Part shown: positions 10,461-44,403 of the stretch, one piece after another | Layout: each line of letters begins with the position of its first letter | Position numbering within the stretch: position 1 is the first letter of the stretch | Origin: Haliclona indistincta | Lineage: Eukaryota > Porifera > Demospongiae > Haplosclerida > Chalinidae | Reading direction: 5' to 3' | Length of the DNA stretch: 64,000 nt | Assembly (NCBI GenBank): GCA_964017065.1 | Contig: OZ024785.1 | Span: forward strand, 930,001 to 994,000 | Notes under the pieces: generated by a model | The model's input: the letters and a program-made list of their open reading frames with translations, nothing else | Database searches by the model: none | What the model was told of the DNA's origin: nothing | Position numbers and translations under genes: made by a program

Positions 10461-13400
10461 TCAGTTGATATACACTTGTTGATAAGCCTCATTGTGTTGG
10501 AGTGGTATTGTCCCTCCATAAGCTACATTCTCTTGAGTAGTGATGGAGTGTTCCTTGATGACATTAGGTGTGTCATAGATCACTGTAGGTAGCTCAGTGA
10601 CTTGTTCTTTATCATGGTCAGCAGTTGCTGTAGCATGTGATGATGGTCTCCTTCTCCTCATAACACACCACACAATGATACTAGTGATAATAGCTGTACT
10701 GATCACTGCCACCGTTACACTAACAAGGACCACAGATACTGTAACTGTAGTGGGAAAACACACAACTAATGATGACACACTTTAGGTATTCTGTGTCATT
10801 AAGTTGTTGTTGAACTCACTAATAACAGTAGAGCTACTCTCTGTAGCAGTTGGTGTTTGTGAATAGATTACTTCATCATGTATTGTACTGCTTATCATAG
10901 TTGTGAATACCTGTTCAACAGCTATGAGGTTTGTGAGCAACAGTTTTGACAAAATTAAAGGATAACTGTACCGGCTTGTGAGTCTGGTTTGACTAACCTG
11001 TCAATGTAGGACTGTAATTTTGCCCAAAAATTGAGGAAGAATTTGTATGTACTAGCTGAGTGGTAGTATAAGTTGCAGTGGCTGTGATTATGGTCAGTGG
11101 TACTAAATTAATTCAAGTTAAACCTATTTATTATGCCTCGGTGGGCGGAGCCACGAGGCATACTGTAATCGCGTTGTCTGTCATTAACCCTCGGCACATG
11201 CGCGAGGGTTACGGTACTTGGTTTGCAATTCGCTGTCCATCGAGCTGCAGAGATCAGCGATCACTTTTACGCGCTGGTAAAGTTATGACATGATAAACAC
11301 CGCAAGGGCTTGCGATTTGACTCGTGGATTTTGCTAAAGTGCTTTCGTTCTCGAGTTATGGCTGGCTCACCTTGACGGCCGTCTTTGACCTCTCTGACAA
11401 CAAAAGCGCCCATAGTTGACTACCTAGGTACTTGTAGATTCCATCTAAACTGCAGGATAGTTCTAGGGGTGCGTAGACATCTCAAGAAAAAGCCAAGAGC
11501 AATGGCTGCCTACTCAGCGTTCACGGGCACGCCCACTTGACACACCTTGTCCTTGTGGTCAGCACTTTGCTGTCTTCTGGTTAGCAGTGCAGTTTCAATA
11601 GCAAGCAGGTTGGCTTTAGCTGCAAAGCTCCTTCTGCAAACCATAAGTAAGGAGCTAACTCGACAATGTGCAACACGCCGAGGGTTTGTGAAGTCTTTTC
11701 ATTCTGTCTGTCATTCTGTCTGTCTGTTACACCATTTTTGCGGCGCACGCTGAACGGTGAGCTCTGAAACTTGCAATGCAGGTAGAAATCGATATTATCT
11801 CGGATGTGAACTAGCGAAATTTCGATACAAAGCTTTGTTCTAGAGTTATGGCGTGATTTGCTTACTTTGTTTGCCGTTGCTGGCGATCTGGACTTCTCCG
11901 AAGGCAAGGCTGTCCACAGTTGACTGCCTAGAAGCTGATAGGTTAGAATTTTACTACAGGATAGCAGCGCAGGTCCAGAGAAATTGTGTAAGCAAGCTAT
12001 GGAAGCTATCTCGCTCGTGGTATGCGTGTGCTGTACTAAACACTGTAGACACGCCCAGTTGAATTGTGGTCAGCACGGATTGGCTTCTGATTGCATAACT
12101 AAAGCACTACTGTACAGAAATCCTGTATACATGCATCTGCAGTTGCTGTGTTTGTAGAATGGTGGATAGTTGTGTTTGTTGATATTTGTAGCAGTATTCT
12201 CACAGCAATGAGTGCAGTAGTCTTGTTGCAGTATACTTTAACTTGTTTCTACTGCAGCTTACATTGCATGCTTCCATGATACTGTTTTGATCCTTCCGTG
12301 GATCTACTGCATGCATATGTACGTGCTGTCATAATTATGCATCTTTGCTTCTGCTTGTGCTATATATGAATGCTGGCAGCTGAATATGAATCCTACTCTG
12401 TTATAGCATTACATGCTCAAATTTTAACATCCACCGAGGCATAACCCGCACCAATGGTGCATTTTTTCAGCAAGTTTTAGTTTCACCATTCACTATAGAG
12501 TAATCACTGATAGGTCCTGGTCCCACAGCATTGACAGCAATCACTGTAATATAGTAGGTTACTCCTGGTACACCAGACACTGTGTAGCTAGTCATAGAAG
12601 AGTTCACTTGTGTGTGTATCAGTGTGCTGTTATCACTGGTATTATAAGACACTACATAGTGAAGGACTGGGAAACCAGCTATCAGTGGAGGAGGCTGGAA
12701 AAAAATTAATAATCAAATACATGTATAATCATACCTGCCATGTCACAACAAAGCTTGATTGATGTGACTGTATCATAAAGCTCACACTACCAGGAACTGG
12801 ATTAACACACCAATTACAATTTAAGTGAATGCATGATCAGGAAAAAATCACATACCATCATATGTGACTGTGAGTTGATCACTCCATGGTCCATGTTGTC
12901 CTGTACTGTCAGTAACAGCCACAGCAAATGAGTAGTTGTGTCCACGAGTGATCAGGTCATCAGTCAGTATCAGTGACTCAGTGTTGCTAGTACTGTAGTA
13001 CGAGCTAGAGCTACTGTAGTTAGTGATATTGATAGTGTAGTTGAAGACACAGTCTGTGGATCCATTAGGAGGAGCTAGCCATGTTAGTATTGCTGGTGAT
13101 GTAATTGTTAAGTTAAATGGTGGATTGGTTGCACCTAGGACTGCATTTAGAAAATATGTAATGAACACTTCAAAATTTAAATAAAAATAATTATTATTAT
13201 ACCTTTTGTCACAATTATTTCGGATACAGGAGATTGCGTAAATAACTGACACTGCAGTGTAATGTTATCATCAGAGAGCAGTGCTCTACTCAGAGTATCA
13301 GTTGATGTTAGTGTGTAGTCCGGTGGTATTATACTAACAGTTGTATTTAAACCAGCAATACTATTATTAGTCAGTGTCTCTGGAGCATCATATTGATAGA

Positions 13401-13659
13401 CAATTTGACTCGCCAAATTATTTGACTGTATCCATCTTAAACTGAAAAGTGTTGTAGTAAAAGAGGCAGTGCATGTATACTCGAGGTCTCCTCCAGGACA
13501 GGCTGGTCCCTTGACATCATTTAGTACTAGCGATGGACTGGCAACTACTGCAGTGAGTCCTATAGACAAAAAGTAATAATAACTATAATTAACATCGATC
13601 TGAGTCTGACCTAGTAATAACAGTGCAGCCTTGGTCACAACAGATAGAAAACACTCCAT
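10461..13659 (-). CDS. Receptor A: Ig/FN3 single-pass membrane protein, YDTP tail (476 aa)
   Basis: Exons (minus, 5' to 3'): 13659-13611, 13559-13203, 13140-12856, 12796-12735, 12694-12487, 11081-10998, 10921-10820, 10744-10461. All borders are GT/AG and the phases close to 477 codons. Residues 1-16 are a signal peptide (MECFLSVV then Leu-rich). Residues 17-135 form an Ig-like domain (CPGGDLEYTC, W, later LQC). FN3 domain 1 is 136-230; FN3 domain 2 is 231-320, split over two exons. A Ser/Thr-rich stalk is 321-382, the membrane segment 383-411, followed by RRRR. The 65-residue tail has tyrosines at 439 (VIYDTP), 458, 470 and 474 (VYIN at the end). YDxP resembles Crk/Nck-type SH2 ligands. Likely a cell-surface recognition receptor; the ligand is unknown. 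Intron 5 holds a 1.3-kb insertion. Confidence 0.85.
11131..12446. mobile_element. 1.3-kb insertion with TTATGCCTCGGTGG inverted ends, in an intron of receptor A
   Basis: TTATGCCTCGGTGG at the left end is matched by CCACCGAGGCATAA at the right. The left end also folds on itself (ATGCCTCG ... CGAGGCAT). Two diverged copies of an inner segment (about 11400-11590 and 11900-12090, both with CTGCAGGATAG/CTACAGGATAG and ACGCCCA ... GTGGTCAGCAC words) suggest an internal duplication. No transposase is visible. It sits between exons 5 and 6 of receptor A and does not touch the splice sites. Confidence 0.6.
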
Positions 13660-14026: not shown

Positions 14027-15494
14027 TGTTATGTTATTATTATTATTATTATTGTGAGCTTTACAACACAGCAAGATAAGCATGAATAGATAATAGTTAG
14101 GATAGAGATTGATTATGGTCGGCTGGTCGAGGGAGTACACACAAGGACTGCGTGCATCCTGTTTGTGATAAAACACAGAAGATTAAAAATTAGAAAGATT
14201 GATTTTATTTGTACAACTGCATAGTTGGCATGGGCAACAAAGGAACCAGGAGCAGGTATGTAAGGGATCAAATTTGGTGAGAAAATACTCCCAGAGAAAC
14301 GCTTTGGTATGTTTTTTGATAGTAGCAATTGAAAAAGATAAGTTTATGACAGGAAGCGAGTTCCAAATTTTCACCACGCGGTTGAAGTAAAAGAAGTGAA
14401 TGTTGTTGCGAGAGGAGCACTGGAGAATACATTTAAGCTTTGAGGCAGAAGAGGATCGAGTGTTGCCAGAGACAAATTGAATATAATTAAAGATGTTGAA
14501 ATGATCAGGAGGGTTTAGTAAACAGTTTAGAAGGAAAGTAAAGTCAAGATATTCGAACCATATTGAAAGAGGAAGTAGATTTAGAGTTATTAAGCGATCT
14601 TTGTAGCTGGACAGGTAATCTTGAAGAATGAATTTTGTAGCACGACGCTGGATACGTTCAAAATTTTTGATGTCTTTAACTTTGTGTGGGCGCCATACTT
14701 GAGAACAGTAAAGAAGTTTAGGTCGGACTAAACTCTTGTAGAGGGATAATTTAGTGTGAGAGGAGAGCGACTTGGAAGTAGATCGGCGAATGAAGTAGAG
14801 AGATTTGTATGCTTTGGAGGTAATGGCAAGATAATGGTCATCCCAAGAAAGATCATTAGAAACTAAAATACCAAGGTCGCGATGAAGAGTTGACATACTG
14901 ATGGGACAATTGTTTATAGTGTAATTAGCGGAAGAGATTATTTGATTAGGAGGAGAAATCCTAAGCAATTTACATTTTGAGTTGTTGAAGGCAAGCTTCC
15001 AGTGTAAGCTCCAGTTGTTGAGAGCATCAAGGTCTTTTTGAAGTGAGATGGAATCTTGTATGGAAGAAATAGGTTTGATACATTTTGTATCGTCAGCAAA
15101 TAGTAGAGGAGTGGCATACAAAACTGAGTCTGGCAGGTCGTTGATAAAAATGATAAAGAGCAGAGGACCAAGAATGCTACCTTGAGGTACGCCCGATGTG
15201 ACTGGTAGTTTAGAAGAGATAGCACCGTCAATGCGAACAGATTGTGTTCTATGAGATAGATAACTGCAAAACCAATTATGAAGAACACCAGATATGCCCA
15301 TATTGTGTAGTTTACTGAGTAGTTGTTGATGAGGAATACTGTCGAAGGCTTTGCTGAAATCAAGAAAAATAATATCAGTTTGCTCATGAGACATGAAGTT
15401 CTGGTAGATGATGGAAAAAGTTGATAAAAGTTGTTGGAGACACGATCTGTTAGGTATGAAACCAAATTGTTTGTCGGATAGATAAGGATAGACA
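14027..15494 (-). mobile_element. 5'-truncated non-LTR retrotransposon (CR1/Jockey-type reverse transcriptase)
   Basis: An open frame on the minus strand from about 15494 to a stop at 14183 encodes the end of a reverse transcriptase: LSDKQFGFIPNRSC, then FLDFSKAFDSIPH, the SGVPQGSILGPLLF segment and the catalytic LLFADDTK. It continues through the connection region with no stop or frameshift, about 437 codons. The endonuclease and start of ORF2 are missing. The 3' side ends in an ATT/AAT repeat at 14036-14054, like CR1-group tails. The insertion is young judging by the intact frame, but cannot move by itself. Confidence 0.85.
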
Positions 15495-17069
15495 TGTGTA
15501 ACCCAGACGGTAATGCAGACAACTCACCCTGTACGCAGCAACAACTGATAGTATCGCTTCTCCTTGTCAGGAGAAAACCAAGAGAGAGCTTGCTGGACGA
15601 TCGCAATAGTGCGGGGAGGTGGAGCTAAAACTGCAGATCAAATTTAACCTCTTTCTCACGAACGAATTGTTTGACCCTTCATGCCTATAGCTGAGCTGTT
15701 TCTCTGCTTCGCCCAGTGGGAGCGCACCATGAGCAAGATGAGGGATTGGTTCTAAGTCATCTGGTAACGAAGCTGTTGTCTAGTTGGATCTGCACTGTGA
15801 TGCGGCATGGTATGCACGTTTTTTGGCTGTCTGGCAAATGTGATGTATCTTCTTCCATCACTCTTGCTGGTAGGAAGGTTTTGCCGAAATCGTTAAATAT
15901 TCGCCCCTTGTTAACTTATAGACTGAGACCTTTGTGCAAAATCCAATACATACGTTTCTTCCTCGTGTACCAAAATTCATGTCTGACATTTAGTGTGGGT
16001 GTGGCATGCTTAGGGAAGCAATGCCACTTTTCATCATCATTGGGTGGAGTTTGTTACGCCCATAAGACTTCCAGTGTAACTGAGCAGCCTTCAACAGAAA
16101 CCAAAATATTCGTAATCCTGTTGTTTGACCACTCCACCCTTAAAGCACTACGTATATTCTGTAATCTTACACGTGCATGCACATGCATATTCTATAGGTC
16201 TCATGCAGCAGCAGTTAGTTTGACTCTCATTTACCAGTCATTATGAATCAATAATATTATTGTACTCTTTTTATAATCATCCATACATCGCTGGAAGAGT
16301 CACACCCGGGCCCATAAATTTAACAGTGTGATTTAGTTTGGAGACTTAAACGTTAATTCTGGTTATAATTGTTCTGCGTAATCACTAAAAGTGGTTTATA
16401 GTCATTAATTTTTACATTGTTTTGCTCTTTTGCAGTGTTATCCCAAGACGCTGTGTTATCCTGCAAAGTCTGACACCTGAAGCTTGCTTGTGTTGTCATC
16501 TAGCACTGATATAGTATAGTCTGATATATCAATCTAGCAATAACAAGTTGTTACAAAACTGTTCGATAATACGTACAGTATAAAGTATGATATTTTTATT
16601 AGAGTGAGGCAGCTATTTATTCTTGTTATTAATTTTATGATATTCTGCTGTTCAGTTGATGCCTAAGTCAGTATAGTCATGCAAAGAACTGGTGGGTGTG
16701 GTGTTGGAGAAGAGAGGGTGTGTATGGAGAGCCTGGACTGAAGAGAGTGTCTTGAACTGAAGTATACAGCAATAGATGAGGTGAATCAGAGTTAGTGCAT
16801 CAAATTCAAGTTGAAAGGTGCTGTTAATTAGAGCATTGTGTGTTGAGAAATACTGCATTATGGAATGTGTGGACATGGCTATAGTATTGCATTCAACCAC
16901 TAGAAGTCATAGAAGCTAGAAGCTCCCATTGCATGCATGCACATACAGTTCTACAAATACAGAATTGTAGGTATAATTTTATAGACATAATAACACTCAC
17001 AACAATACTAAACTAGAGAGCACGTCTAATACAGAGCCAGTCTAACAGTATTTGCAACCACAATTAATA
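15495..17069. other. Intergenic stretch between LINE and receptor B
   Basis: A 176-codon plus-strand open frame (15716-16246) shows no recognisable domain, biased composition or intron context and is probably chance. The rest is AT-rich without clear structure. Confidence 0.35.
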
Positions 17070-18874
17070 TTATTTATAATTGTGTACTTGTCCATAAGCT
17101 ACATTATCTTGAGTACTGATGTTTTGTTCTTTTGATGGTGTGTCATAGATCACTGGTGCTAGCTCAGTGACTTGTTCTTTATCATGGTCAGTAGTTGCTG
17201 TAGCATGTGATGATGGTCTCCTTCTCCTCATAACACACCACACAATGATACTAGTGATAATAGCTGTACTGATGACTGACACCGTTCCACAAACAAGCAC
17301 AGTTGATACTGTGGTTACTGTGATATGAAAAACGCACAACTCATGATGACAAACACTAAAATCATAATCTGTTATTGTTGTTACTGAGCTCACTAATAAC
17401 AGTAGAACCACTTCCACCCACGGACTGTACTATAGTTGATGTTTGTGAATAGGCTGCTTGTGTTGTACTTGATGGCATTTGCTGTATTATGGTTGAATAC
17501 TTTGTAGTTGTTGGCTCTATAACTAAATATTTTGTTATTGGTGAAAAATGACAAAGGGAATAAGCTTACAAGTAGTAGAAATATCTTGATTGCCAATACA
17601 TAAAACAGAACTGTAAACTTGGCATGCTTGTGCTGCAATCATTGTGAAAAGCAACAACTAATGACGAGCTCATAATTAATTTTGCTCAAATCACCAGCTG
17701 CTATAGAGTATCCACTGATAGGTCCTGGTCCAACAGCATTGACAGCAATCACTGTAATATAGTAGGTTACTCCTAGTACACCAGACACTGTGTAGCTAGT
17801 CATAGAAGAGTTCACTTGAGTGTGTATCAGTGTGCTGTTATCACTGGTATTATAAGACACTACATAGTGAAGGACTGGGAAACCAGCTATCAGTGGAGGA
17901 GGCTGGAAGAAATAAAATAATAGCTAAATAAATTGACAAGATCATGTACCTGCCATGTTACATTGATGTTTATTAGATATATCTGTAATTCAAAGGTCAC
18001 TCTAGCAGGGACTACATTATTATAGCATAATCTGCATGAGCATGCACAACTAAAGAAAGAAATACCATCATATGTGACTGTGAGTTGATCACTCCATGGT
18101 CCATGTTGTCCTGTACTGTCAGTAACAGCCACAGCAAATGAGTAGTTGTGTCCACGAGTGATCAGGTCATCAGTCAGTATCAGTGACTCAGTGTTGCTAG
18201 TACTGTAGCACAAGCTAGAGCTACTGTAGCTAGTGATATTGATAGTGTAGTTGAAGGCACAGTCTGTGGGTCCATTAGGAGGAGCTAGCCATGTTAGTGA
18301 TGCTGGTGGCTTGATGGCAGTGATACTCAGACTAGATGGAGAGTTAGCTGCACCTTTGAATATTCATTATAATAATAATTATTTTATTATAGCTATAATT
18401 ATTATGTACCTGCTATTGAAATGCTGACAGATGTGAACTTGCTCGGTGGTAACTGACATTGCATCATATTGTTATGATAAGCAAGTGTAACATTGAATAT
18501 CGTGGCAATTGACAAAATTGTATAATTCGCTCCATTAAATGTAGCAGTAAAGATGTCACGAGGTGAGTTGCTTGTGGTAGATCCATCACTGCGGATGTTA
18601 TATATACCCTGGTAGGACCAAGTCATCGTTGGTAGATCAACCATTGCCATCATTGTGTGTAGTGTTCTTATAATAGTACAGTTTAGAGTGACATCTTGTC
18701 CAGGACAGGCAGCTGATCCATTAGCTGGCTGTATAGGCTGGATTGTGACAGTATCACTGATCTGAGGCTCAGCAGCAGCTGTATCTTATGAAATATTATT
18801 TTAGCATCGAGTTAGCAGTATAATGACAAGTTACCTATAACCAGTAGACAGATCAGCACAACGAAGTGTTCCAT
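17070..18874 (-). CDS. Receptor B: Ig/FN3 single-pass membrane protein, short YDTP tail (449 aa)
   Basis: Exons (minus): 18874-18835, 18784-18410, 18353-18066, 18011-17950, 17902-17695, 17522-17394, 17317-17070. Phases close to 450 codons. Residues 1-13 start a signal peptide (MEHFVVLICLLVI). The Ig domain is 14-138 (CPGQDVTLNC ... MMQCQL), the FN3 domains 139-234 and 235-324, a Ser/Thr-rich stalk 325-367, the membrane segment about 368-397, then RRRR and a 52-residue tail with tyrosines 425 (VIYDTP), 442 and 448. The tail matches that of receptor A for its first 29 residues with few changes. The Ig exon, the following intron and most of FN3-1 are almost identical to receptor C. Probably a non-ITIM partner of receptor C; the ligand is unknown. 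Confidence 0.85.
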
Positions 18875-18981
18875 CTGCAAGCTATGCTGTGTCGTACAAT
18901 GCCAAACCACACACCCATAAAACATTAATAGCCTCAACTCATGAATATCAATTTAATGAATATAGTGGCTGGTAACCAGAA

Positions 18982-19635
18982 TTAATGATATTCATGATTT
19001 TAGCAAGTAGCTGTATTTTTCTAGCCAAGGGTATTCGTGCAGACAGAGTTGCTGCGTGCAGTTAGCTTGCCTATCGATAGGCATCGAATATAGCAAGTTT
19101 CAGCCACGTAGTGGTCGCCATCACGGAACGACGAGCTCGTCAGGTGAAGACTAAACACGATCGAGTTTTTACAATTTTTCTTTAGTTGTGTGATAAGTAC
19201 GAAGCTAAAACTGCTCCTGCAAGCTCATCTACTATCTGTGGAGGAGCCTGCGTATGGATTTCGCCGAGCAATGCTCGTACGCGATACTACAGCTGCGTAC
19301 TCTGTACTGTCTGGCTGTACGTAGCTGCAGTATTACGTACGAGCATTGCTCGGAGAAATCGATAGGCAGGCTCCTCCACGAATGGAAGATGAGCTTGCAG
19401 GAGCAGTTTTAGCTTCGTACTTTCCACACAACTAAAGAAAAATTGTAAAAACTCGATCGTGTTTAGTCTTCACCTGGCGAGCTCGTCGTTCCGTGATGGC
19501 GACCACTACGTGGCTGAAACTTGCTATTATCGATGCCTATCTATAGACAAACAAAGCGCACACTGCAACTCCGCCTGCACAGATATACTTGGCTAAGAAA
19601 GAAATAGCCATTTGTAAAGTCATGAATCTCATTAA
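18982..19635. mobile_element. Foldback element, long near-perfect arms (about 300 bp)
   Basis: The two halves are reverse complements about a centre near 19308. Shared words include ACTAAACACGATCGAG / CTCGATCGTGTTTAGT and GAAGCTAAAACTGCTCCTGC / its complement. The loop contains GTACGCGATACTACAGCTGCG. A diverged single arm of the same family lies at 28164-28525. No protein is encoded. It starts about 110 bp upstream of receptor B. Confidence 0.75.
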
Positions 19636-19834
19636 AACGGTATTCCGCCACCCAAAGAAAATTGAGTCCCGTTAAGCGGAGACTTCCTAATTAATAGGGT
19701 TCTCCTCAGCACTCGCGTTATGCGAGTCATCATCGATACTAATTGCTATAAAGGCTTGTTTGTAGCACTAAGTTTAACATACAGCTAAACCCAAAACCCT
19801 AAAAACCTTCTCCTAACTGCGCAAAGTAGGGAGG

Positions 19835-20010
19835 GTCTTCCTAACTAACTAAGGATCGTCAGGAGGGTCTTCCTAACTAAGGATCGTCGGGAGAGTCTTC
19901 CTAACTAAGGATCGTCGGGGGGGTCGTCCTAAACCGGGCCTTCGGCCCTTAGTAAGCCTAAGGATCGTCGGGAGAGTCGTCATAAACAGGCCTCAACTAA
20001 GGATGGAGCT
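19835..20010. repeat. Short tandem repeats, CTAACTAAGGATCGTCGGGAG-type
   Basis: Four to five copies of a roughly 30-36-bp unit with GGATCGTCGGGAG and GTCTTCCTAACTAA words, inside the loop of the foldback element. Confidence 0.7.
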
Positions 20011-20054
20011 AAAACTTAACTTTTATAAATAAAAAAAAACACACAAAAAAAGCA

Positions 20055-20132
20055 TGCATTCTGCGAGAATCGAACCCTGACCGTCTGCATCACAAGCCAC
20101 CATACTAAACCGCTGTACCACCGAACCAACTG
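20055..20132 (-). other. tRNA-like sequence with pol III A and B boxes
   Basis: On the minus strand TGGTACAGCGG (A-box form, 20120-20110) is followed 33 bp later by GGTTCGATTCT (B-box form, 20076-20066). The anticodon loop would be TTGTGAT (GTG, His), but the anticodon and T stems pair poorly, so it is a tRNA-derived promoter (SINE-like) or pseudo-tRNA, not a working tRNA gene. Confidence 0.45.
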
Positions 20133-20207
20133 ACCGGTTGGTGCTACAAACAAGCCTTTATAGTAATTCTGTACGCGCGCGCACAACGCGAGTGCTGAGG
20201 AGAACCC

Positions 20208-20212
<5 letters not shown>

Positions 20213-20243
<31 letters not shown>

Positions 20244-21432
20244 CAACAGAAAACAGAACACAACATAGATAGAAGATTATACCTGATGAAGAAATGAATA
20301 TATACAAGTGATAAATGATTATACCTGGTAGAGAAATCAATAATTATAAATAGACAAGTGATAAATGATTAAGTGATATATGGCATATTGGCAATAAAAA
20401 AAAAAAAAAACCGAACGAACAAAACAGAACAAAAACAACAAAAAAGAAATTAAAAAAAACAAGTGATAGTTATTATTATTATTATTATTATTGAAAAACA
20501 CACCACATAAGGTGTACATGTAGATTTAAAATTAATGTTAATCAGTGGCAATTGTCCTTAGCATTAAGTCAATAGAAGAGCTTCCCTGACAAATGTTAAC
20601 AGTGCTTGATGACAGCAGGAAATCTCTTAATACTATAGCACATCTCTCGTCATCATTGGAATATTCTTTTAAATAAGTTCGACCACAGAAAATATTGTGT
20701 CCAGAGAAAGTATAAGCCAAATCTTCGTTAAAGATCAGTTTGACCAAAGTGTTTGAGTTGTTTTTTGCATTTTTGATAAATTTAAGCGATCTTGAAGAAA
20801 CCAAGTTATAAATACTTTGGACTCTAGCACATCGATGCAGGATACCGGTATGCGTTCTACGAGGTAATCTCCAGATACGCCGCAGACAGTTGTTTAATAC
20901 AACCTCTAAACTCCTTAGACCAGGAGAAGAAATATTCCAAAGTTCGCAACCATACAGAGCTAGACAATATGATGAAAACAGATATGTCATAGGAATCGGT
21001 CCGATATTTGGAAAAGTAGAAAATAAGCTATTAGCAGCCCTGGATAAATAACGAGATTTTAGCAGAATATCTTCATCGTCACAGAGATTATACTTTAGCT
21101 TGTTACCCAAGTGCACGACGGTATTAGAAAATTGGAGAGGCGAGTCACAGAAGAGGAAATTAGAATTAATATTGTCAAAATCAGATACACCCAAACGAAA
21201 ATTAATAAGCTGAGTCTTGAGAGGATTGAAATGTAGACCAAGACAACTACCATGTGATTCACAAGTAGCAAGAAGGGTGCGTAATGCAGAGGCAGAAGGT
21301 GCCAAAAGCACTATATCATCTGCGTATGCAAGGGCGCCTGCATAATGGCTATTCCAAAAACAACCAACTCCAGTAGACTCAAGCTTTAAAAGCAGCTCAT
21401 CTAGATAAATAGAAAACAATACAGGTGACAAA
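20213..21432 (-). mobile_element. 5'-truncated LINE, reverse transcriptase C-terminal half
   Basis: Open frame 21431-20538 (minus, 297 codons) begins at SPVLFSIYLDELL, goes through the catalytic ALAYADDIVLLAPS and the thumb/connection region (LNNCLRRIWRLPRRTHTG). A 3' UTR with A-rich runs and ATT repeats (20465-20493 and 20209-20243) follows. The truncation falls inside the RT domain. TATTA at 20208-20212 and 21433-21437 is a possible 5-bp target duplication. It differs in sequence from the LINE at 14027-15494 and belongs to another CR1/Jockey-like lineage. Confidence 0.8.
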
Positions 21433-21470
21433 TATTAATTAGGAAGTCTCCGCTTAACGAGACTCATGAA

Positions 21471-22808
21471 AATTTGCTTCCGCCGGGCCTGCAGTTGAGT
21501 ATACAACTTGATCATGTGCTGACAATGGTACAGCTGACATTGGTCGCTTCCCAGGAGCATTTCCAAGGTCTGCATAATCAGTGGTTTCTCCAAATATTTA
21601 AAATTAGTGCTGGTAAAAATTAATAATTAACCTTTAGTCTTGCATCAGAGTAGATGACCTTGTCAGTAGGAGGTATTGCTGGTGTGTTGTGCAGTGGCAC
21701 TGTTCCAAGATCAGCATAATGAGTTCACCATGTTTAGCTGCCTGTAAAAGTTATCATGATTGTGATCAAGAATTTAAAAACATAAAAATTACCTTTTACA
21801 CTGGACACATTCTACTAGACTGATTCTGAGAAGAAAAAAAGATCAAAATATAATCTCTAAAATACATATCAGAATCTAAGGTACTGTTTAGATCATACAT
21901 ACATACTAGTATTGACCTCCTGAGATAAGGTCACATTATGGTATCTAGACTCCACTGTACAATATATGAACTATACACATGCTCTCCTTTATTGACCCAA
22001 AGTTATAGAGATATGTCATTCACATCACAACTAGTGACTTACTGTGAGATATTATGATGCGTGTGAGCCAAGTCAGCTATTCTGTGATCACCATAGCAAC
22101 ATCAGTGTGCTAATCTGCCTACTGTTTGAGACTTGTGTTGCAGTGGTTGACATGATTGAAGGCACTGAAGGTGAATGAGCTTGTGGTAAATATAAATTTC
22201 AAGTTTTCCATCTCACCATTCACTATGGAGTATCCACTGATAGGTCCTGGTCCAACAGTAGACAAGATTCTCCAGGCAAGATTTTCTTACTGAGTTGCTA
22301 ATAGCTGCTTGAGCACTACAAGCACCTAGTGACTAGTGTACCCTGCTAGCAACTATTACTTAGAGCTATACCTGCCATTTTGATAATCTTCATGTGTGAG
22401 CAGTAGCCTCGTACCCAGGTGCTAGAAGGGGGTGGAGGCTAGTGTGAGCAGGTAACCACAGTGTCATGATGAGATAGCTGAACACTGTTTATAGTTGTAT
22501 TTGGCATCACTGTTTGGCCCACTGGATGAAATACAGTAGTATAGTAGACACTGCTATATCTGATGGGATGTTGAATATGATTTGATCTCCTCTACCGCCA
22601 CTGCAATATGCTGGTATTAAAGTTCCGCCCATCCTATCAACAGTACAGTTGATAGTGACATCTTGTCCAGGACAGGCCACTAGCTGCCTGAAGTGTGATC
22701 TCGTCTTCAACAAGTTGAGCTGTCACATGATCTTTATAAAGTTTTGAAAAGATGAGATGAGACTCCCTCAGTATAGCTATTAGCATCAGACTACAAATAA
22801 ATGTTCCG
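21471..22808 (-). pseudogene. Decayed receptor of the C type (ITIM-tail relative)
   Basis: Pieces in the order of receptor C on the minus strand: a signal-like start near 22808 (MCGTFICSLMLIAI), an Ig exon remnant (about 22713-22507, ACPGQDVTINC), an end of FN3-2 (about 22200-22255), a tail exon (about 21645-21735) and a last tail exon (about 21590-21471, DYADLGNAPGKRP ... HDQVVYST). Both tail exons have lost one T at the ITIM codon (ATTATGC where C has ATTTATGC). The TM exon was not found and FN3-1 is missing. The final reading frame runs into the arm of the neighbouring foldback element. A TAGCCTCGTACCCAGGTGCT transposon end lies at 22407. Confidence 0.7.
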
Positions 22809-22859
22809 CACATTCTAGGAATTTGCACATTCTATAGAATGCACAAAATTAATTCTGGA

Positions 22860-23837
22860 ACATAAATAATTTTAAAAGCTTTCTTTAGTGGTGGTGGTAC
22901 CATCATACTCCCGAGCCAAATGAGATAACTATCCCACCCACTTGTTAGATAATCTCATGAATACTCTAATAGCTAACACAATGAGGCTGCTACAACAGTG
23001 CTTGTTCGACCATGAACGGTATATAGTTCATCAGCTAAGATAATTACTAGGTATACTTACAGCATGTATTTGCCTCGCACGGAAATAAAATTCATTAATA
23101 ATAATAATGCATGGTACCAACCAAAAGAAAAGACAAACAACATAAGTTACTAGATTAAATTAGATCGATAGCCACAAATATCTCTCTTGAAAACAGAGAG
23201 GGATGAAGCGGAGACAATCTGCTGCAGGGACAATCTCATGATCAGCAGGTTCCATAGTTTAACAGTGTCCCGGAAAAAGGAGGAGTCATAAGCATGAAAT
23301 GTCTTAGCATTGAGTCAAGAATCATAACCTGTTCTTCAGTTTCTGTAGACAGTCTTTTGTTAGCCCTTTCACGAATTCGAAGGTGTGAAAGTCTGTTTGC
23401 TCTATTATTTGTAATGGAGAGTAAATACATGCAGCGCGGGATTATGTTTTTACCGAGTAGCAGTGGTGTCTCTCTTCAAGTTCACGCTGTCTGCGCTTCC
23501 CCTCCCGCGCCAAAGCCCTGGTTCTTGCAGCATCAGTCACAGTATTGCTGATGAGGGCGGTGCATGGAAAGCGAGATGGGAAGGCGAATCGTTCATTTTG
23601 TAGTCGAGTTATGAAAGAACGTCGAGTAGTTATGAAAGAACGTGCAATCCCGGGGCCTTGCAATTGCTGCCCTCTGGCCCTCGCATACAATACTACAGTA
23701 TGGGCCTCGCCATATGGACTGATTGCATTCCTAAGCGTGACATATATATATATATACAAACATACAATTTCGACACAGTACTCCGCGATTACATGCCTCG
23801 CGCTAAGGCGCTCGGCAATAATGACCATGCATGCAGA
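22860..23837. other. Region with unrecognised minus-strand ORF pieces
   Basis: Two minus-strand open pieces meet with a frame change near 23430-23445: an upstream one ending RQRELEERHHCYS and a downstream one with SRLSHLR-like residues (RLSHLRIRERANKRLSTE). They may be a broken exon of a multicopy gene; I do not recognise the family. An (AT)n run lies at about 23740-23755. Confidence 0.35.
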
Positions 23838-26484
23838 TTAATTTGTGCTTGAGTTAACTGTAGAGTACACAACTTGATCATGTGATGACAGTGGTGGTGC
23901 CATTGGTTGTTTTCTAGGAGCAGTTCCAAGATCTGCATAAATCAGTGGCCGCTTTCTATCTAATGTATTTTCCTGCAATAAAATGACACAAACTTGATTC
24001 CATAATAATTATGATTATGATAAGATTACCTTTGGTTTATAGTCTCTTGCATCAGAGTAAATGACCTTGTCCACAGGAGGAGGAGGTATTGCTGGTTTGT
24101 TGTGCAATGGTACTGTTCCAAGATCAGCATAAATCAGTGGCCGCTTTCTATCTAATGCATTTTCCTGCAGTAAATGACACAAACTTGATTCCATAATAAA
24201 TAATTATGATAAGATAACCTTCTTTGGATTATACTCTCTTGCATCAGAGTAAATGACCTTGTCCACAGGAGGAGGAGGTATTGCTGGTTTATTGTGTAAT
24301 GGTACTGTTCCAAGATCAGCATAAATAATTTCACCACGTTTAGCTAGTGTCTATAAAAAGTTAAACACTGAATGCAAATTATATTAATGCATGTACCATA
24401 TTCACTGGAGGTGGTGGGCGGGGAGGAGGCATACTGTCATCATTATTAGGTGTTGTTAAATCAGCATAAATTGATGTTATTTTCTAAAGTGTTTGAGAAA
24501 CACATCACAGAACAAAGCACTTGGTTACATGACTAACATTTTGTGTAGAATCTGTCTTTTTGGTACTGTCCCTCTGTGAGTATTAAACACAAAACTTGAA
24601 ATAAAAATTAAGCACACTAACCATTTCAAAACTTTGTGAGTAGGTATTGCTATAAAGTGATAGAATGAAGATTTTAGTAACTATACAATAATATACCTGC
24701 TACATGTAACTTTTTTCTGTTTCTTTCCTAATAAAATGATTATTATTTTAATTAACACAATCATTATTAATCTTTTGCATACTTTTAGCCTGCACAAAGC
24801 ATATAATGATAACAAGTGATACCACCAGAAATAGTAGGAATGCTATGATTCCTCCAATCGGAGCTGCTATGATAATAATACTCCCTGATGTATCTGTCAT
24901 ATTATTAGCAGAGGTATTATTATTGTCTGGTGAGTTATATATGACTGAGGTAGAGCTGGATGCATAAGCTGCTGAGCATGGACAAAAATCAATATTGATT
25001 GCGATTTACAAATGAAGATTATATAGCAATTATTTAGTAGTAATTTACTTGCAAGGTCAAGATGATTATACTCATAGGTTGTTTTGACCATTATATACAG
25101 AACATTCTGTAACACATAATAGATGTTTTGACTAACTTGTGGTAGGACTATTAACAGTGATCTTAATGGAAGAACTTGCAAATAGCTCTAAACTTGTTGC
25201 AGTGATTGATGTAGTTGTAAGTGGCACTAAGCAATGTGTGACGATGCTTGGATAATTTTATTAATAATAATCTTGGATTCTAACCATTCACTATAGAGTA
25301 ATCACTGATAGCTCCTGGTCCCACAGCATTGACAGCAATCACTGTAATATAGTAGGTTACTCCTGGTACACCAGACACTGTGTAGCTAGTCATAGAAGAG
25401 TTCACTTGTGTGTGTATCAGTGTGCTGTTATCACTCGTATTATAAGACACTACATAGTGAAGGACTGGGAAACCAACTATCAGTGGAGGAGGCTGAAGAA
25501 TAAAATCACGAATGTACACATGATACTTATTCATACCTTCCAAGTCAGATTAATAGTGCTTGTTTGATATGACTGTATCATAAAGCTCACATTACCAGGA
25601 ACTGCATTAACACAACAATTAAAAGTGAATGCATGATCAGCATGTAAATTACTTACCATCATATGTGACTGTGAGGTGATCACTCCATGGTCCATGTTGT
25701 TCTGTACTGTCAGTAACAGCCACAGCAAATGAGTAGTTGTGTCCACGAGTGATCAGGTCATCAGTCAGTATCAGTGACTCAGTGTTGCTAGTACTGTAGC
25801 ACAAGCTAGAGCTACTGTAGCTAGTGATATTGATAGTGTAGTTGAAGGCACAGTCTGTGGGTCCATTAGGAGGAGCTAGCCATGTTAGTGATGCTGGTGG
25901 CTTGATGGCAGTGATACTCAGACTAGATGGAGAGTTAGCTGCACCTTTGAATATTCATTATAATAATAATTATTTTATTATAGCTATAATTATTATGTAC
26001 CTGCTATTGAAATGCTGACAGATGTGAACTTGCTCGGTGGTAACTGACATTGCATCATATTGTTATGATAAGCAAGTGTAACATTGAATATCGTGGCAAT
26101 TGACAAAATTGTATAATTCGCTCCATTAAATGTAGCAGTAAAGATGTCACGAGGTGAGTTGCTTGTGGTAGATCCATCACTGCGGATGTTATATATACCC
26201 TGGTAGGACCAAGTCATCGTTGGTAGATCAACCATTGCCATCATTGTGTGTAGTGTTCTTATAATAGTACAGTTTAGAGTGACATCTTGTCCAGGACAGG
26301 CAGCTGATCCATTAGCTGGCTGTATAGGCTGGATTGTGACAGTATCACTGAACTGAGGCTCAGCAGCAGCTGTATCTGAAGAGTAGCTTGGATATCACAT
26401 TGAATTTTAATAATAAGTATCTTTCTTACTTATACTGCAGCTGTAACTAGTCAGTGCAAGGACGAGCAAATAGATTAAAGACAT
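23838..26484 (-). CDS. Receptor C: Ig/FN3 membrane receptor with five ITIM-form motifs (616 aa)
   Basis: Exons (minus): 26484-26430, 26375-26001, 25944-25657, 25601-25537, 25492-25285, 25226-25137, 24968-24783, 24727-24697, 24649-24622, 24573-24538, 24483-24397, 24350-24219, 24164-24030, 23972-23838; phases close to 617 codons. Residues 1-18 form a signal peptide, 19-143 an Ig domain, 144-239 and 240-330 two FN3 domains, 331-390 a Ser/Thr/Asn-rich stalk, 391-419 the membrane segment, then KRKKQKK. The tail has ITIM-form tyrosines (S/I/V/L-x-Y-x-x-L/V) at 460 SIYADL, 493 IIYADL, 539 LIYADL, 584 LIYADL and 608 VVYSTV, plus VIYSDA at 517 and 563 and proline runs (AIPPPPV) that suit SH3 or EVH1 binding. 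By analogy, phosphorylated ITIMs would recruit SH2 phosphatases and inhibit signalling. The ligand is unknown. The exon 7 donor could instead be a GC donor after CAG. Confidence 0.85.
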
Positions 26485-26631: not shown

Positions 26632-29600
26632 ATGGCGCTTCCCGGTCTCTGTTTGATGTTGGCCCTTATTCTTTCATATTCTGTAACATCAGCAACAGGT
26701 ACGTTTAGAGAAAAGATTATAGGCGTGATAAATTCACACTTGCATTGATACTGGCGCCTGACAATGATAATGACATGCATTACCCATGATCAGGTGTCCG
26801 TGTGTCTTGTTTCGTGCTCGGTTTCGTGTCAGCATTAGTTGTACTCATGCCAGTGTATATAGTGTATAGTGGTAATACGGCTCTTAGTATTAATGTGCTA
26901 ACAGCTAGTATGTCCTAAACTCCTTAAGACTGTAGATCCGCCCCCTTTGCATCAAGAGGTGTCAATTTAATGTTACGTGACAATAATACTTATTAGACCA
27001 CAGCTAAGCGATGTTGACCAATCAGGTTGCGTAGCTGCCAGTCTATAAATCTCATAATGGAATCCCGCCACTGCCGCGACTTCATAATGGAATCCCACCA
27101 CACTGCGCAGATTACGGTTCTGTACGCGGAGTTCTACTGAATAATTTTAACAGCGCTCGCGTGTCAGCTTGCTCGTCGTTCGCGTCGTTTCTGCTTGCTG
27201 TTGCTATGGTCTAAATCAGTTAGACAGCCCATCCAATCGGATCTACGCGATGTAGAAGCCCTCGCGCCGTTACCATAGCGCCCTCGCTACGCTCGGACGC
27301 TATATAGCAACGGCTCTCGGGCTTCTAAATCGTGTAGATCCTCGGATGCGCTGTCTAACTATTATTTACATGTTGATTGAGTCTACTAATTTGAAATACT
27401 GTAATTTGATTGGTCAACAGCGTGACTCTAATTCCTGTAGAGTCACGGTAGCGAAGCTCTAAGTGTACCCTCAGGCGTTCAGACATAAGCAAAGAATGGA
27501 GTGTGTGTTTGCTGTAATGGGCTCAGTATACGTTTCTTACAGCTTCGAAGTTGAAGGACACTGTATTAGTCCAGAGACGCTCACTAAAAGTACGGAATGC
27601 TAACTAAACAGCGCTGAACGCTGATGTTTCAGGTATCGTAGTATTCCTTGACGGTGTTACTAGCTCGCAGGTCACTCGCCATATTGCTATAAGCTCCACC
27701 CTAGCCTGGCGCTCCTCCCCTGCCATGCTAACCTAGTAAACTAGTAGACTCTAAATAAGTTAGACAGCTCATCCAATCGGATCCACGCGGTTTAGAAACC
27801 CTTGACCCGCTGGAATATAGTGTCCTCGCTACGCTCGTAGGCCTTAGCAACAGGCCTTGGGTTTCTTAATTGCGTAGATCCTCGGACTCGCTGTCTAAAT
27901 ATTTTATAAATTATTATGTAATAATTATTTAAACCACTCTGGGCAATGCATTGTGCAATTTAAAGCATGAGGGCCATGACCAATAACGGTCGAGAACACA
28001 TGATAATGCACAAGCCGTAGGCATGTGCTTTGTCAGCATTTGAGGTTATTGGCTTGCCCGAGTGCTTTAAATGGTCTAAATATTGTAATGCTCACTGTGT
28101 GGCCTCCGTGCTCTTGTGCTAGAGTGGCACTTCGATGAGTGTCTTAAGGTGGCAGGTGACCAAATTAATGATATTCATGACTTTTGCAGGTAGCTGTATT
28201 TTCCTAGCCATTGGTATTCGTGCAGACAGAATTGCTGCGTGCAGTTTGCTTGCCTATCGATAGCCATCAAATAGAGTAAATTTCAGCAATGCAGTGTTAG
28301 CCATCGCGGAGCTACGAGCTCGCCCTGTGAAGACTAAGCACGATCGATTGTAAACACTTTCTTTAGTTGTGCGAAAGATGCGAAGCTAAAACTGCTCGAG
28401 CATGCTCATCTGCCATCTGTGCAGGAATCTATGTGATGTTTTTGCCGAGCGCTGCTCATACACGATATTACAGCAGCGCAGGCTGTGCTGTCTGGCACCA
28501 CATAGCTGTAATATCGCGTATGGTAAAGCCAGAGCAAGATAAATAAGAAAAGATGATTCTAGCTTTTAGGTCACTGAAAGGATACGAACCCGTTCATGTG
28601 CGCTTAGTACGCTTCCAGGTCTAGGATAAATTTGCCGTAGAATAGCATATTTGCTGGCTGGCTGGCTATCTGTCATGGGGTGTGTTTGTCGCCTAATGTT
28701 CCCGGAAAACACCTATTACTGCACACAGGAGCATGAATACAGTCAACGATAATTATTTCCGGAGCTTGATTGGTAGCTTATGAACTTAGCAACTCTTGAT
28801 AAGGTCTACCCTTTTAAATTCCAGGTAGGGTTAATGAAATGACACGTAATTTTTATGCTGTACACCCCAAAAACCTAAGATTTGACCTTTTGGACACATA
28901 CATTTGTATTTGGGAACAGTACAGGTCGGGTTAATGGTTCAACTGCTAAAGGCTGCAATATTGAAAGTCACCTTGCAGATAACTATGAACAATGAATGCA
29001 TCCATTCTCAAAATTAATAAATAAAAAGGCATGGCATTTTGTGGCATGGCATTATTTATAAAGGTTTTCTGCTGTGAGTTCAGGCTATATTTTACGTTCT
29101 CATGGATAGAACTAAGGCGTGTCCGCACTTGAAACCCTAGTTGAATCCAGATTGGATTAATCCAGACTTACCCGGGTTAAACTCAGTTAGCGAGCGTCCG
29201 CACTCGACCCGGATCGATGTGAGTCAGCCTCAGTCAGGTTCATGCTAGCAGTCCAAGGCCGTGCTTATAGCGATAACATAGCACTTCTTGGCTGTGTGGG
29301 TCTTTCTCCAGCACTAGAATGCTCGAAGAACGTCTCTAGTGCATGTACACGTGGATTCACCGAATTCACCAAAACGGACCGGATTCACCAAAACTAGGTC
29401 GAGTGCGGACGCGATCTGTCCAAGTTCAACCCACCGGGTTCTATATCGTGTTGATCTCTTGACCTTGGTATCTTAATGGTTTTTTTTTCACTTGATGTAG
29501 TTTTCCTCGATCGTGATCAAGATGAACCTATTTGTGCCTCAGGGAAACTTACCTTTAGGTGCACTACTATCACTACTTTGGGATTTCTTCGATGGTTTAT

Positions 29601-32442
29601 CAATGGTGTATCAGTTTATACTATTGACAGTTCAGTTGCTGTCAATGACAATGTAACAGTGGATGGAAGTTTGTTTGTTTTTGACAGTAGTTCAACTATT
29701 GCTAGTGCTAATGTCTACACATCAACTGCTACACTGAACACTTCACATGTTCGAACTGTACGATGTTTTGATGGAGGGTCATCGGAGACTCGCACAAATT
29801 TATTCAGAGGTAAATTAATGTTACTTTATATTATTATTATTATTGAATTTTGTGCATTTAGTTGAAGACTGTGCCATTAATATAACAGGGGAAATTAATG
29901 GGACTACAATCACGGTAAAGTGGACTAGGCCTGCTGGAGATTGCTGTGTGCAATCTCTCGTGATGACATCAGAATCAAGCATGCCATTTGTAACTAACGA
30001 TACAAGTTTTATTCTGACCAATCTCTTGACACAACAACGACGAGAAGATGCCTTTGTTTCTGTTCGTTGTCTGGATATGATAGGGACACAGGGACCTAAA
30101 GTTGTTTACAAACCTGTCGTTGGTATGTTGAAATGTGTTTTTAAATGTGTTAGGTTACGATCTGTACATTACAGGTCCTCCATCTGTTGATGTTCTGCCA
30201 CCACTACCTGCTGACTTGAATGGTAGATACGAAATCAATTTTGAAACTGATATAGTGAGTGTTTTTAAATGTGTACTGTTTACATTGTTTTGTACAGAGC
30301 TCGAGTTTTGGATTTTTTGCTGAAATAACAGGGTGCAATGTTAACGTTGATGGGGGTTCTTGTAATCACACTACGAAAAAAGCCTATATTAGTAGAGATG
30401 GATTTGATGACTTCCGTGTTATTATCACATTTACTTACGAACTGAATGGTATATCTAGTTCGATGCAGGAGATGACTGAATTTGGTAATGATTAATGCTG
30501 AAAAATTCATGATTATTGTTGTTTATTTCAATTACAGATGAGAGTCAAGCAACGATTCTTCAAAAAGCAGGTGAGCTGCTTGTTACAAGTAATATATAAA
30601 CCATGGCTTCGAAGCGAGGGGTTTATCGAGGCTGCAAAGTTCCGATGACCGAGACCGAGGGTGGTATATTCGGCATATACCACCCTATATACGTCGCTAT
30701 ATACGGTATATACGTCGCTTCGTGCTCGCGTTCGCGTGGATCTCGATTTAGCGGTGAGTCACGGACCGAGAGGAGGCCCCAAGTGTGTAAGCGTACCTGA
30801 GTAGAGTGTGTGGCAAAGACTTGGACAGCTTTGTGCTTCTAGAGCGAAAGAGCGATCGCTATGTTTCTTGTATTATTCAACATGACTTGGGCAGGGTTTG
30901 TCACATGCTTGCCAATTTAATACCCACTAGTGTCAGGATGATTGTACACTATAAATCTCAGCCACTTCTGCACATCTTTGCCCTGCAACTGGGTGGTGCT
31001 AGTTGCAAGGCGAATAACTGCCCTCGCCCTAACTGCCCTAGATATACCATTCAGTTCGTAAGTAAATATGTAGCCTCGTCCCCAGGCTCTCCGTGGGTGT
31101 GGCTAGATTGCGTGGGTGTTTGGAGGAGAGCCTGGTATCCACTGCTCACGCATGTGCTAGTTTTTCAATTAAAAGCACGTGTTTTTTTATTGATGACGGC
31201 GTTGAATTTACATCCTGTATAAATTTACGTAACGCTAGGCGTGTCTCTCGATCTTATATCGTGTATTTCACTGGCAGGCAAAAGGCGTGAACATCGACAG
31301 TGGAGCACCAGACATAGCGAGCTGCTACTCGTGTCTGTGGCGATTGATGATGGGCACCACAACATGTCTGCATGAAGTGCGTTGGGCGAGCGGAGGCGTT
31401 AGAGAAGACATCCCTTTTATCGTGCACCGCGCCAATTGCAGTGACTTGCGCCGGCTTGGGACTCATTCCATGGTTTCCAGTGCACTCTAGTGCGTATTTC
31501 AGCGCGTTCTCAAACTCGTCGTCTACTCGTCTTCACACATTAGTAGTTGTTCAGCTCGAGAGGTGTGGTCTGACGACGTAATGTAACACGGCCGTTTACG
31601 AAAAATAACCCGAGCCTTGGAATTCCAAGGCAAACTAGCGCATGCGCAAGCAGTGGATACCAGGCTCTCCTCCCAACACCCACACAATCGAGCCACACCC
31701 ACGGAGAGCCTGGGGACGAGGCTAGTAAATATGATAATAACATGCCCTCGCGCAACCTCAACCTGGTCACGTGACCAGGGCACACCTCTTGGTTAACCCC
31801 TTGAGGAGTGTATTTCTCGTATACCACCATGGTGGTATATATCGCATAATCTCCATGGTGGATTATGCGATATATACCACCATGGAGGTATATGAGAAAT
31901 TCACTCTTCAATGGGTTAACTGAGGTGTGCACCATGGTGGGGAATATGAGAAATATACCACCTGTGCCTTGTATGGGGACGCCCACACACTATGGTATAT
32001 AGATAGACCTCTGAATCATGCTATATCATATACATAATTATACCATAGATTAGGAATTTTTCGTTATTATTTCGATTTTCAAAGCTTGATTATGTGTGTA
32101 CTGTGTGCTAATAATATTGTTTGTTTAATTACATTGCTAGAATGGACGCTTACAATTTTATGCTGAAAATTCTATCTACATCTGTATCATTTTTAGATAA
32201 TGAACGCTTGGTGACTCCTCTTACTGGAGCCTGTGCTGCTCTTGCTGTACTGTCATTGATCTTGATACTCATAGTTGTCATACTGGTGATAGTGGTATGT
32301 GCTCAGTGCAAAAAGGTTAAAGCCCTTTTAAATGGTTAGACTACTTGTGTGAGGTAGTGTGTTTTGTTTATAGTTTGTTCTTTATACAGCAAGTGACATC
32401 CCTTTATATACACAAGAGTCAAAGTCTGATACCAAGACATAG
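26632..32442 (+). CDS. Receptor E: divergent Ig/FN3 single-pass membrane protein (375 aa)
   Basis: Exons: 26632-26698, 29501-29809, 29862-30122, 30175-30254, 30298-30484, 30538-30570, 32197-32334, 32390-32442. Phases close to 376 codons. Residues 1-22 are a signal peptide (MALPGLCLMLALILSYSV). An Ig-like domain is 23-125 (CASGKLTFRC ... RTVRCF). An FN3 domain is 126-212 (TTITVKW). A second FN3-like region is 213-301 over two exons. The membrane segment is about 322-347 (Leu/Ile/Val-rich), followed by QCKKVK and a short tail of about 25 residues with one tyrosine in PLYTQ. There is no ITIM. Introns 1 (2.8 kb) and 6 (1.6 kb) are filled with small transposons. It is the only member on the plus strand and is distant in sequence from A-C. 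Confidence 0.8.
27220..27358. mobile_element. 139-bp MITE, TTAGACAGC ends (copy 1)
   Basis: Palindromic element starting TTAGACAGCCCATCC and ending GCGCTGTCTAA, inside intron 1 of receptor E. A second copy of the same length lies at 27760-27898. Confidence 0.7.
27760..27898. mobile_element. 139-bp MITE, TTAGACAGC ends (copy 2)
   Basis: Same ends and length as the element at 27220-27358, with several substitutions in the body. A further small inverted repeat (TTTAAAGCATGAGG ... CCCGAGTGCTTTAAA) lies at about 27959-28068. Confidence 0.7.
28164..28525. mobile_element. Single diverged arm of the 18982-19635 foldback family
   Basis: Matches the left arm of that element in order (ATGATATTCATGA, ATTCGTGCAGACAGA, GCTTGCCTATCGATAG, TGTGAAGACTAA, GAAGCTAAAACTGCTC) but without the mirrored second arm. 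Confidence 0.65.
29116..29413. mobile_element. Small inverted-repeat element, TCCGCACT motif
   Basis: GCGTGTCCGCACTTGA near 29117 and GCGTCCGCACTCGACC near 29194 are matched by GGTCGAGTGCGGACGC at about 29398-29413. Probably a MITE just upstream of exon 2 of receptor E. The exact ends are uncertain. Confidence 0.4.
31071..31724. mobile_element. Foldback element with TAGCCTCGTCCCCAGG ends and 9-bp target duplication
   Basis: TAGCCTCGTCCCCAGGCTCT at 31071 is mirrored at the right end (31724); arms are about 90 bp. GTAAATATG is found directly outside both ends (31062-31070, 31725-31733), a clean 9-bp duplication as made by Mutator-like elements. It lies in intron 6 of receptor E. Confidence 0.75.
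31780..31930. mobile_element. Compact hairpin element, GCACACCTC ends
   Basis: GCACACCTCTTGGTTAACCC at 31780 is matched by GGGTTAACTGAGGTGTGC ending at 31930. The inner 95 bp form a further near-perfect hairpin (ATACCACCATGGTGGTAT and repeats of it). No coding capacity. Confidence 0.6.

Positions 32443-43354: not shown

Positions 43355-44403
<1,049 letters not shown>

Follow-up and report, generated by a model that had tools for sequence, protein, structure and literature searches.

Among the PIR-A/PIR-B, KIR and SIRP receptors, a few members with immunoreceptor tyrosine-based inhibitory motifs (ITIMs) stand beside many short-tailed ones. These families, like the CD300 receptors, carry recognised immunoglobulin (Ig) V or C2 domains and are not known to have fibronectin type III (FN3) domains. 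To our knowledge, FN3 cassettes with paired tails are not a feature of the Hydractinia Alr proteins. As described in the available text of PMC12447643, CD300A and CD300C are adjoining genes with near-identical ectodomains, one with a long ITIM tail and one with a short tail, and their ectodomains are kept alike by gene conversion. In Botryllus, the FcoR genes form receptor gene pairs on two chromosomes and encode ITIMs and Yxx[ILV] core motifs; the accessible part of that report also states that Hydractinia Alr candidate allorecognition genes carry ITIMs and immunoreceptor tyrosine-based activation motifs (ITAMs) (PMC12065747). Here we analyse a 64,000-nucleotide stretch of the genome of the sponge Haliclona indistincta (assembly GCA_964017065.1, contig OZ024785.1, positions 930,001 to 994,000 of the forward strand; the window), which contains two neighbouring receptor genes, B and C, with closely similar Ig-FN3-FN3 ectodomains and different tails.

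One ectodomain with two kinds of tail, the architecture that the initial annotation had proposed for these genes, has strong support, since the same arrangement is seen at five loci on three contigs. We consider B and C to be one of at least five neighbouring pairs that are likely paired receptors (probability about 0.6), with C predicted to act as the inhibitory member by recruiting SHP-type phosphatases, and B likely engaging other SH2 adaptors.

Structure of receptors B and C

Receptor C occupies positions 26484-23838 of the minus strand, with 14 exons encoding 617 amino acids; receptor B lies at 18874-17070 of the same strand, with 8 exons encoding 470 amino acids. All introns in the models (13/13 in C and 7/7 in B) have GT..AG junctions and keep the reading frame, and the strand and positions given for both genes by the initial annotation stand. 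The two proteins share the same domain order: a signal peptide, an Ig-like exon, a first FN3 domain (FN3-1), a second one encoded by two exons (FN3-2), a stalk, one transmembrane helix and a tail. The features, all on the minus strand, are as follows.

26430..26484, minus: C exon 1, signal peptide (ATG; donor GTAAGAAA, phase 1)
26001..26375, minus: C exon 2, Ig-like domain (family conserves Cys and mostly Trp; Pfam ig under cut-off)
25657..25944, minus: C exon 3, FN3-1 (gene model, Pfam)
25285..25601, minus: C exons 4-5, FN3-2 with an intron between them (fn3, E 8e-13)
25137..25226, minus: C exon 6, stalk (gene model)
24783..24971, minus: C exon 7, stalk and transmembrane helix (gene model)
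24538..24727, minus: C exons 8-10, small juxtamembrane exons (gene model)
24397..24483, minus: C exon 11, SIYADL and proline-rich stretch (gene model)
24219..24350, minus: C exon 12, IIYADL (phase 0 at both ends)
24030..24164, minus: C exon 13, LIYADL (phase 0 at both ends)
23838..23972, minus: C exon 14, LIYADL and VVYSTV, stop (gene model)
18835..18874, minus: B exon 1, signal peptide (gene model)
18410..18784, minus: B exon 2, Ig-like domain (374/375 bases identical to C)
18066..18353, minus: B exon 3, FN3-1 (286/288 bases identical to C)
17695..18011, minus: B exons 4-5, FN3-2 (gene model, Pfam)
17394..17632, minus: B exons 6-7, stalk (gene model; exon 6 is the least certain exon of B)
17070..17317, minus: B exon 8, transmembrane helix, then a 52-residue tail containing VIYDTP and VAYGQV (gene model)
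18066..18784 in B and 25657-26375 in C, minus: near-identical block (716/719 bases, intron included)

The 719-base block contains three differences, and the introns on either side of it are unalignable. The intron between the Ig and FN3-1 exons is identical in the two genes (56/56), which shows recent copying at the DNA level, by gene conversion or block duplication. In FN3-2, 45 bases are identical in the first exon (62 and 65 bases long) and 196/208 in the second. The statement that B and C have nearly the same Ig, FN3-1 and FN3-2 exons is thus accurate for the first two and too strong for FN3-2.

Pfam recovers two fn3 domains in each protein (E 8e-13 for C and 8.6e-12 for B) and matches none of its Ig families to the Ig exon of either at E 1. 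Searched alone, the Ig exon of C reaches 16 bits with PF00047, whose cut-off is 21.8. We tentatively read the exon as Ig-like because the family alignment conserves the Cys residues and mostly the Trp, PF00047 matches 8 of 18 family members (best E 0.0035), and a family profile searched against PDB finds as its best match an antibody chain, weakly and partially (E 3.6e-5). An AlphaFold2 model made with three window sequences was too poor for use (pLDDT 46). A protein search with C matched two FN3-domain proteins at 12-14% coverage.

Neighbouring ITIM and short-tailed genes across the genome

We searched the 144 Mb genome, in which the contigs discussed here are labelled C2, C3, C8, C9 and C10. 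Counting fragments singly, there are at least 137 matches to the Ig exon (E 0.01), at least 150 scored matches to the short tail and at least 52 to the ITIM exons (both at E 1). The short-tail matches that were typed lie mostly on C3 at 0.6-1.65 Mb and on C8 at 6.45-6.92 and 9.5 Mb. For linking exons into genes we used 85/137 Ig matches plus the Ig exon of receptor A, a third receptor of the window, 116/150 short-tail matches and 50/52 ITIM matches; those dropped were mostly fragments or members of a distant cluster at C3:6.6-6.9 Mb. When each of the resulting 86 Ig exons was joined to the next tail exon on the same strand within 6 kb, 66 acquired a short tail, 8 an ITIM tail and 12 none. At the eighth ITIM locus (C8:6.593 Mb), the Ig exon that precedes the ITIM exons contains stops. 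Identity was compared among 76 Ig sequences (7 ITIM, 57 short-tailed, 12 unlinked), with 7 partial matches and 6 short sequences excluded.

In this set, five ITIM genes have a short-tailed partner nearby with a near-identical Ig exon. They are given below with the ITIM gene first and the DNA identity of the Ig stretch, gap columns left out.

Pair 1: C/B, 7.6 kb apart, 377/378 (99.7%)
Pair 2: C3:652.9/641.6 kb, 352/357 (98.6%)
Pair 3: C3:1420.8/1433.8 kb, head to head, 353/366 (96.4%)
Pair 4: C10:6083.8/6094.4 kb, head to head, 338/345 (98.0%)
Pair 5: C8:6622.7/6645.7 kb, convergent, 323/330 (97.9%)

Three contigs and three relative orientations are represented among the pairs, whose partners are 7.6-23 kb apart. 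Of the ITIM/short pairs, B/C alone has the same protein sequence throughout the domain compared, as does one pair of short-tailed genes. Across loci, genes of the same tail class share 61-87% of their Ig DNA (three comparisons, ITIM with ITIM and short with short), and their tails are 77-98% alike; the search of the pair partner gave no tail exon of the opposite class. Since Ig identity within pairs exceeds that across loci and tails are alike by class, the ectodomains group by locus and the tails by class. In pairs 2 and 5 the identity is 96.9% over 1094 and 1197 bp, introns included, and stops within a few bases of the end of the FN3-2 exon. In the head-to-head pairs it runs through the membrane exon (92.5% over 1722 and 91.5% over 1640 columns), and introns are in places less alike than exons.

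For five of the seven ITIM genes, the closest Ig sequence belongs to a short-tailed gene of the same contig no more than 25 kb away, as compared with a mean of 1.39 under permuted labels (P 0.001). Several observations weigh against reading this as a system of pairs. The Ig set was picked partly by similarity to C. The excess shrinks when the distance is relaxed to 50 kb with no identity threshold (5/7, permutation mean 1.87, P 0.010) or when an identity threshold of 0.93 is imposed (4/7, P 0.014). Short/short pairs of 93-100% identity exist, one of them from a large duplication on C8, and the nearest relative also lies within 50 kb for 17 of the 57 short-tailed genes. For the sixth ITIM gene (C8:6.697 Mb), the 95% relative lies at C8:6.662 Mb, where a run of N after FN3-2 makes the tail unreadable; for the seventh (C8:6.923 Mb, linked to its tail across 5.2 kb only), the set contains no close partner. 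Finally, a recent duplication of the exon block, if repeated at several loci, would look the same as gene conversion.

These points lead to the alternative that these are adhesion-type genes of a large Ig/FN3 family, whose ectodomain exons were copied by recent local duplication and gene conversion regardless of the tail, with no opposing signals. The near-identical short/short copies, the C8 duplication of about 100 kb and the FN3 exons, which are 89-100% alike in the comparisons made both within and across loci, are what such copying would leave. Against it, a neighbour of the opposite class is the nearest relative of five of seven ITIM genes, which exceeds the number under permuted labels (P 0.001-0.014 by test variant), the pairs are spread over three contigs with three relative orientations, and the ITIMs stay intact. 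We regard this alternative as rather unlikely.

A stronger rule, that near-identical pairs are nearly always ITIM/short, was suggested by 63 Ig exons and was dropped when several short/short pairs appeared at 76 exons. Likewise rejected were further ITIM genes at C3:1.275, 1.298, 1.343 and 1.523 Mb, where ITIM exons precede short-tailed genes. We treat these exons as relics because no ectodomain or membrane exon was found before them (tblastn, E 1e-3) in 3.6-4 kb at three of the loci (L062-L064) or in 1.5 kb at the fourth (L028); the stretch upstream of L062 contains only the end of the preceding short-tailed gene.

Receptor matches recur about 101.5 kb apart with equal scores at C8:6.77-6.80 and 6.87-6.90 Mb, probably as the result of a recent large duplication. 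A further cluster with another Ig-like type lies at C3:6.24-6.54 Mb (L135, L136), with an ITIM last exon containing LVYAQV..VVYSTV.

Tyrosine motifs of the tails

The tail of C, encoded by exons 11-14, has 196 residues with proline-rich stretches and five motifs of the ITIM form [ILVS]xYxx[ILV]: SIYADL, IIYADL, LIYADL, LIYADL and VVYSTV. Shuffled tails contain 0.40 such motifs on average (P 5e-5), and the tail of about 195 residues with five ITIM-form motifs described in the initial annotation is confirmed. Between 4 and 10 ITIM-form motifs occur at all eight ITIM loci scanned. In 25 tail exons of seven ITIM genes, every Yxx[ILV] motif (39/39) has I, L, V or S at position -2, although the 39 are not independent because they are homologous repeats. 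The ratio of nonsynonymous to synonymous change (dN/dS) is 0.05 and 0.22 for tail exon t1 in two of three comparisons and 0.36-0.46 for exon t3 in three. For the Ig exon it is 0.5-1.4 (six comparisons), and for the FN3 exons 0.3-0.9 in 11 of 12 comparisons and 1.29 in one.

The genome encodes candidate partners for such motifs. Two tandem SH2-SH2-PTP genes lie at about C9:7.65 Mb (C9:7649501-7654100, L068), whose SH2 and phosphatase domains are read without interruption in a single open frame, 572 codons long in one gene and 581 in the other; the second frame reaches the edge of the examined stretch. Both have the FLVR, WPD and HCSAGIGRTG sequences, and one has as its best PDB match SHP-2 (PTPN11) chains over residues 9-536 (E 2.1e-181). 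A third SH2-SH2-PTP layout is found at C2:12.786-12.788 Mb. By domain order only, an SH3-SH2-kinase at C2:14.303 Mb is Src-like, an SH3-SH3-SH3-SH2 protein at C9:4.836 Mb Nck-like and an SH3-SH2-SH3 protein at C9:4.803 Mb Grb2-like. With two tandem SHP-type frames and the uniform -2 position, the inhibitory half of the pair is plausible.

The YADL repeats of C could instead act as Yxx-phi signals for endocytic sorting or as docking sites for SH2 domains in general. YADL fits Yxx-phi, and the proline-rich stretches suggest SH3 docking; yet a sorting signal has no need of the I, L, V or S at -2 that all of these homologous copies carry, there are 4-10 motifs per gene, and SHP-type genes are present. 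We find this distinctly unlikely.

The tail of B pairs VIYDTP, a YDxP motif, with VAYGQV. Of 33 distinct short tails, 32 have YDxP, 30 have a Yxx[ILV] core and 2 have the ITIM form. The set excludes the tail at C3:641, whose RRRRQSSH was missed by the search pattern; read separately, it contains VIYDTP and NVAYGLA. Phosphorylated YDxP is the form favoured by Nck and Crk SH2 domains. A script flagged membrane charge in 6 of the 33 tails; in five the charge sits at the cytoplasmic edge, and in the sixth, which is the second tail of L112, it is an Arg within the membrane stretch.

At seven loci (L029, L031, L034, L035, L036, L038 and L040) an open ITIM last exon follows the short-tail stop by about 270-310 bp, with the same acceptor-like AG at all but L031. 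These exons may be alternative last exons or relics. If the former, the choice of tail would be made partly by splicing within one gene, as the accessible part of PMC12065747 describes for Botryllus FcoR loci, which swap ITIM and hemITAM by splicing. However, the C-terminal ends of the seven exons vary and look like decay, and no such exon lies near the tails of B or A among the matches listed, which leaves splicing a small chance.

The tails also supply points against paired receptors of opposing sign. Membrane charge, ITAM and hemITAM are all absent from the gene model of B, and neither ITAM (0/33) nor hemITAM (0/33) occurs in the short tails read. VAYGQV fits the ITIM formula, a single occurrence that chance could give in 52 residues (P 0.076), so that the annotated "52-residue tail without ITIMs" is right in its length and wrong, by formula, in its absence of ITIMs. 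The same motif recurs in one other of the 33 tails (L042) and in L137 (C3:6.876 Mb), a distant short tail, which means that the split between ITIM and short tails is not clean. In the C3:1.420/C10 comparison, dN/dS of exon t1 is 1.43, on 10 changes. The annotated contrast of inhibitory with activating tails is weakened on its activating side by the absence of membrane charge, ITAM and hemITAM in B and by its own ITIM-form motif. That both members inhibit, B weakly through VAYGQV and C strongly, the pair tuning strength and not sign, would account for this motif in the three tails but has a slim prospect, given that the ITIM form is so rare among the short tails and that the pair partner at C3:641 has NVAYGLA in its place.

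A possible mechanism and its relation to described receptors

With a near-identical outer part and differing tails, each pair of the proposed paired receptors likely reads one ligand in two ways. Gene conversion between the ITIM-tailed and the short-tailed gene may keep the recognition exons matched, so that both members would see and bind the same ligand. Src-type kinases would then phosphorylate the tails. The phosphorylated ITIM-form motifs of C may engage the tandem SH2 domains of SHP2-like enzymes and dampen the response, and the short tail of B, which also has a Yxx[ILV] core, may dock another SH2 adaptor at YDTP. The output of B would differ from that of C and would probably be positive or cytoskeletal. 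Copying of exons could keep both members in register as they change, as in CD300A/CD300C. Recognition of self and non-self, or of microbes, is a likely use. A broader proposal is possible but doubtful: a genome-wide paired-receptor system of the sponge, in which gene conversion moves an Ig-FN3-FN3 cassette of about 1.1 kb between ITIM-tailed and YDxP-tailed genes at several loci, giving each specificity an inhibitory and a positive output in the service of self/non-self recognition.

In the PIR-A/PIR-B, KIR and SIRP families the proportion of tails is similar to that seen here (7 ITIM and 57 short among the 76 Ig exons compared); their domain make-up differs, and no activating adaptor arm is seen in the tails read here. 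As in CD300A/CD300C, B and C are neighbours with near-identical ectodomains, one of them ITIM-tailed by motif form; unlike that pair as described in the available text (PMC12447643), they have Ig-FN3-FN3 ectodomains, and B has its own YDxP and no membrane charge for an ITAM adaptor. The ectodomains are homogenised at each locus, the tails go by class, and a tandem-SH2 phosphatase is encoded in the same genome. The partner B lacks the membrane charge or ITAM/hemITAM usual in an activating paired receptor, and two fn3 domains without a Pfam Ig family set both proteins apart from KIR, SIRP, PIR and CD300. We would thus call this a paired-receptor system by architecture and claim no membership of a vertebrate family.

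The Botryllus FcoR pairs appear to be the nearest invertebrate analogue that we met. By description in the accessible part of PMC12065747, they resemble the sponge genes in forming receptor gene pairs with ITIMs and Yxx[ILV] cores; the FcoR partner is another kind of receptor, FF, and FcoR has Ig, sushi and C2 domains, whereas here one ectodomain is common to both members. Hydractinia Alr proteins are similar, again by description there, in having tyrosine motifs of ITIM form.

If the broader proposal is true, the paired-receptor logic of NK type would be present at the base of the animals, whether inherited or convergent. Matched ITIM/short pairs in a sponge would carry the defining feature of paired receptors, ectodomains kept alike across two tails, into an early branch of the animals. 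The literature matches listed, which comprised titles and beginnings of abstracts and covered few subscription papers, included none that reports paired receptors with ITIM tails in a sponge. The pairs, tail peptides and SHP-type enzymes are now named, which makes the question testable.

Other features of the window

Sequence matches reveal two further receptor copies on the minus strand.

10462..13559, minus: receptor A (partial model), with another Ig exon, similar FN3 exons and a tail of the same class as that of B
21487..22677, minus: degenerate copy of an ITIM-tail receptor, lying between B and C

Reverse-transcriptase-like open frames were seen by eye on the minus strand at 14183-15523 and at 20538-21434, the latter between B and the degenerate copy. 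A palindromic repeat occupies 18982-19635 and matches its reverse complement at about 86% identity; related copies lie near 28142-28520. On the plus strand, at 26632-32350, a signal-peptide-like exon was seen by eye about 150 bp from the ATG of C, head to head with it; downstream features that may belong to this exon at 26632 are an Ig-like frame at about 29.5-29.87 kb, a frame resembling FN3 and, at about 32.2 kb, a membrane helix. Also by eye, tandem short-chain-collagen-like genes with a common C-terminal domain extend over 37000-62200 of the plus strand, and a short phosphatase-like stretch is found inside an open frame at about 44280-44420 of the same strand.

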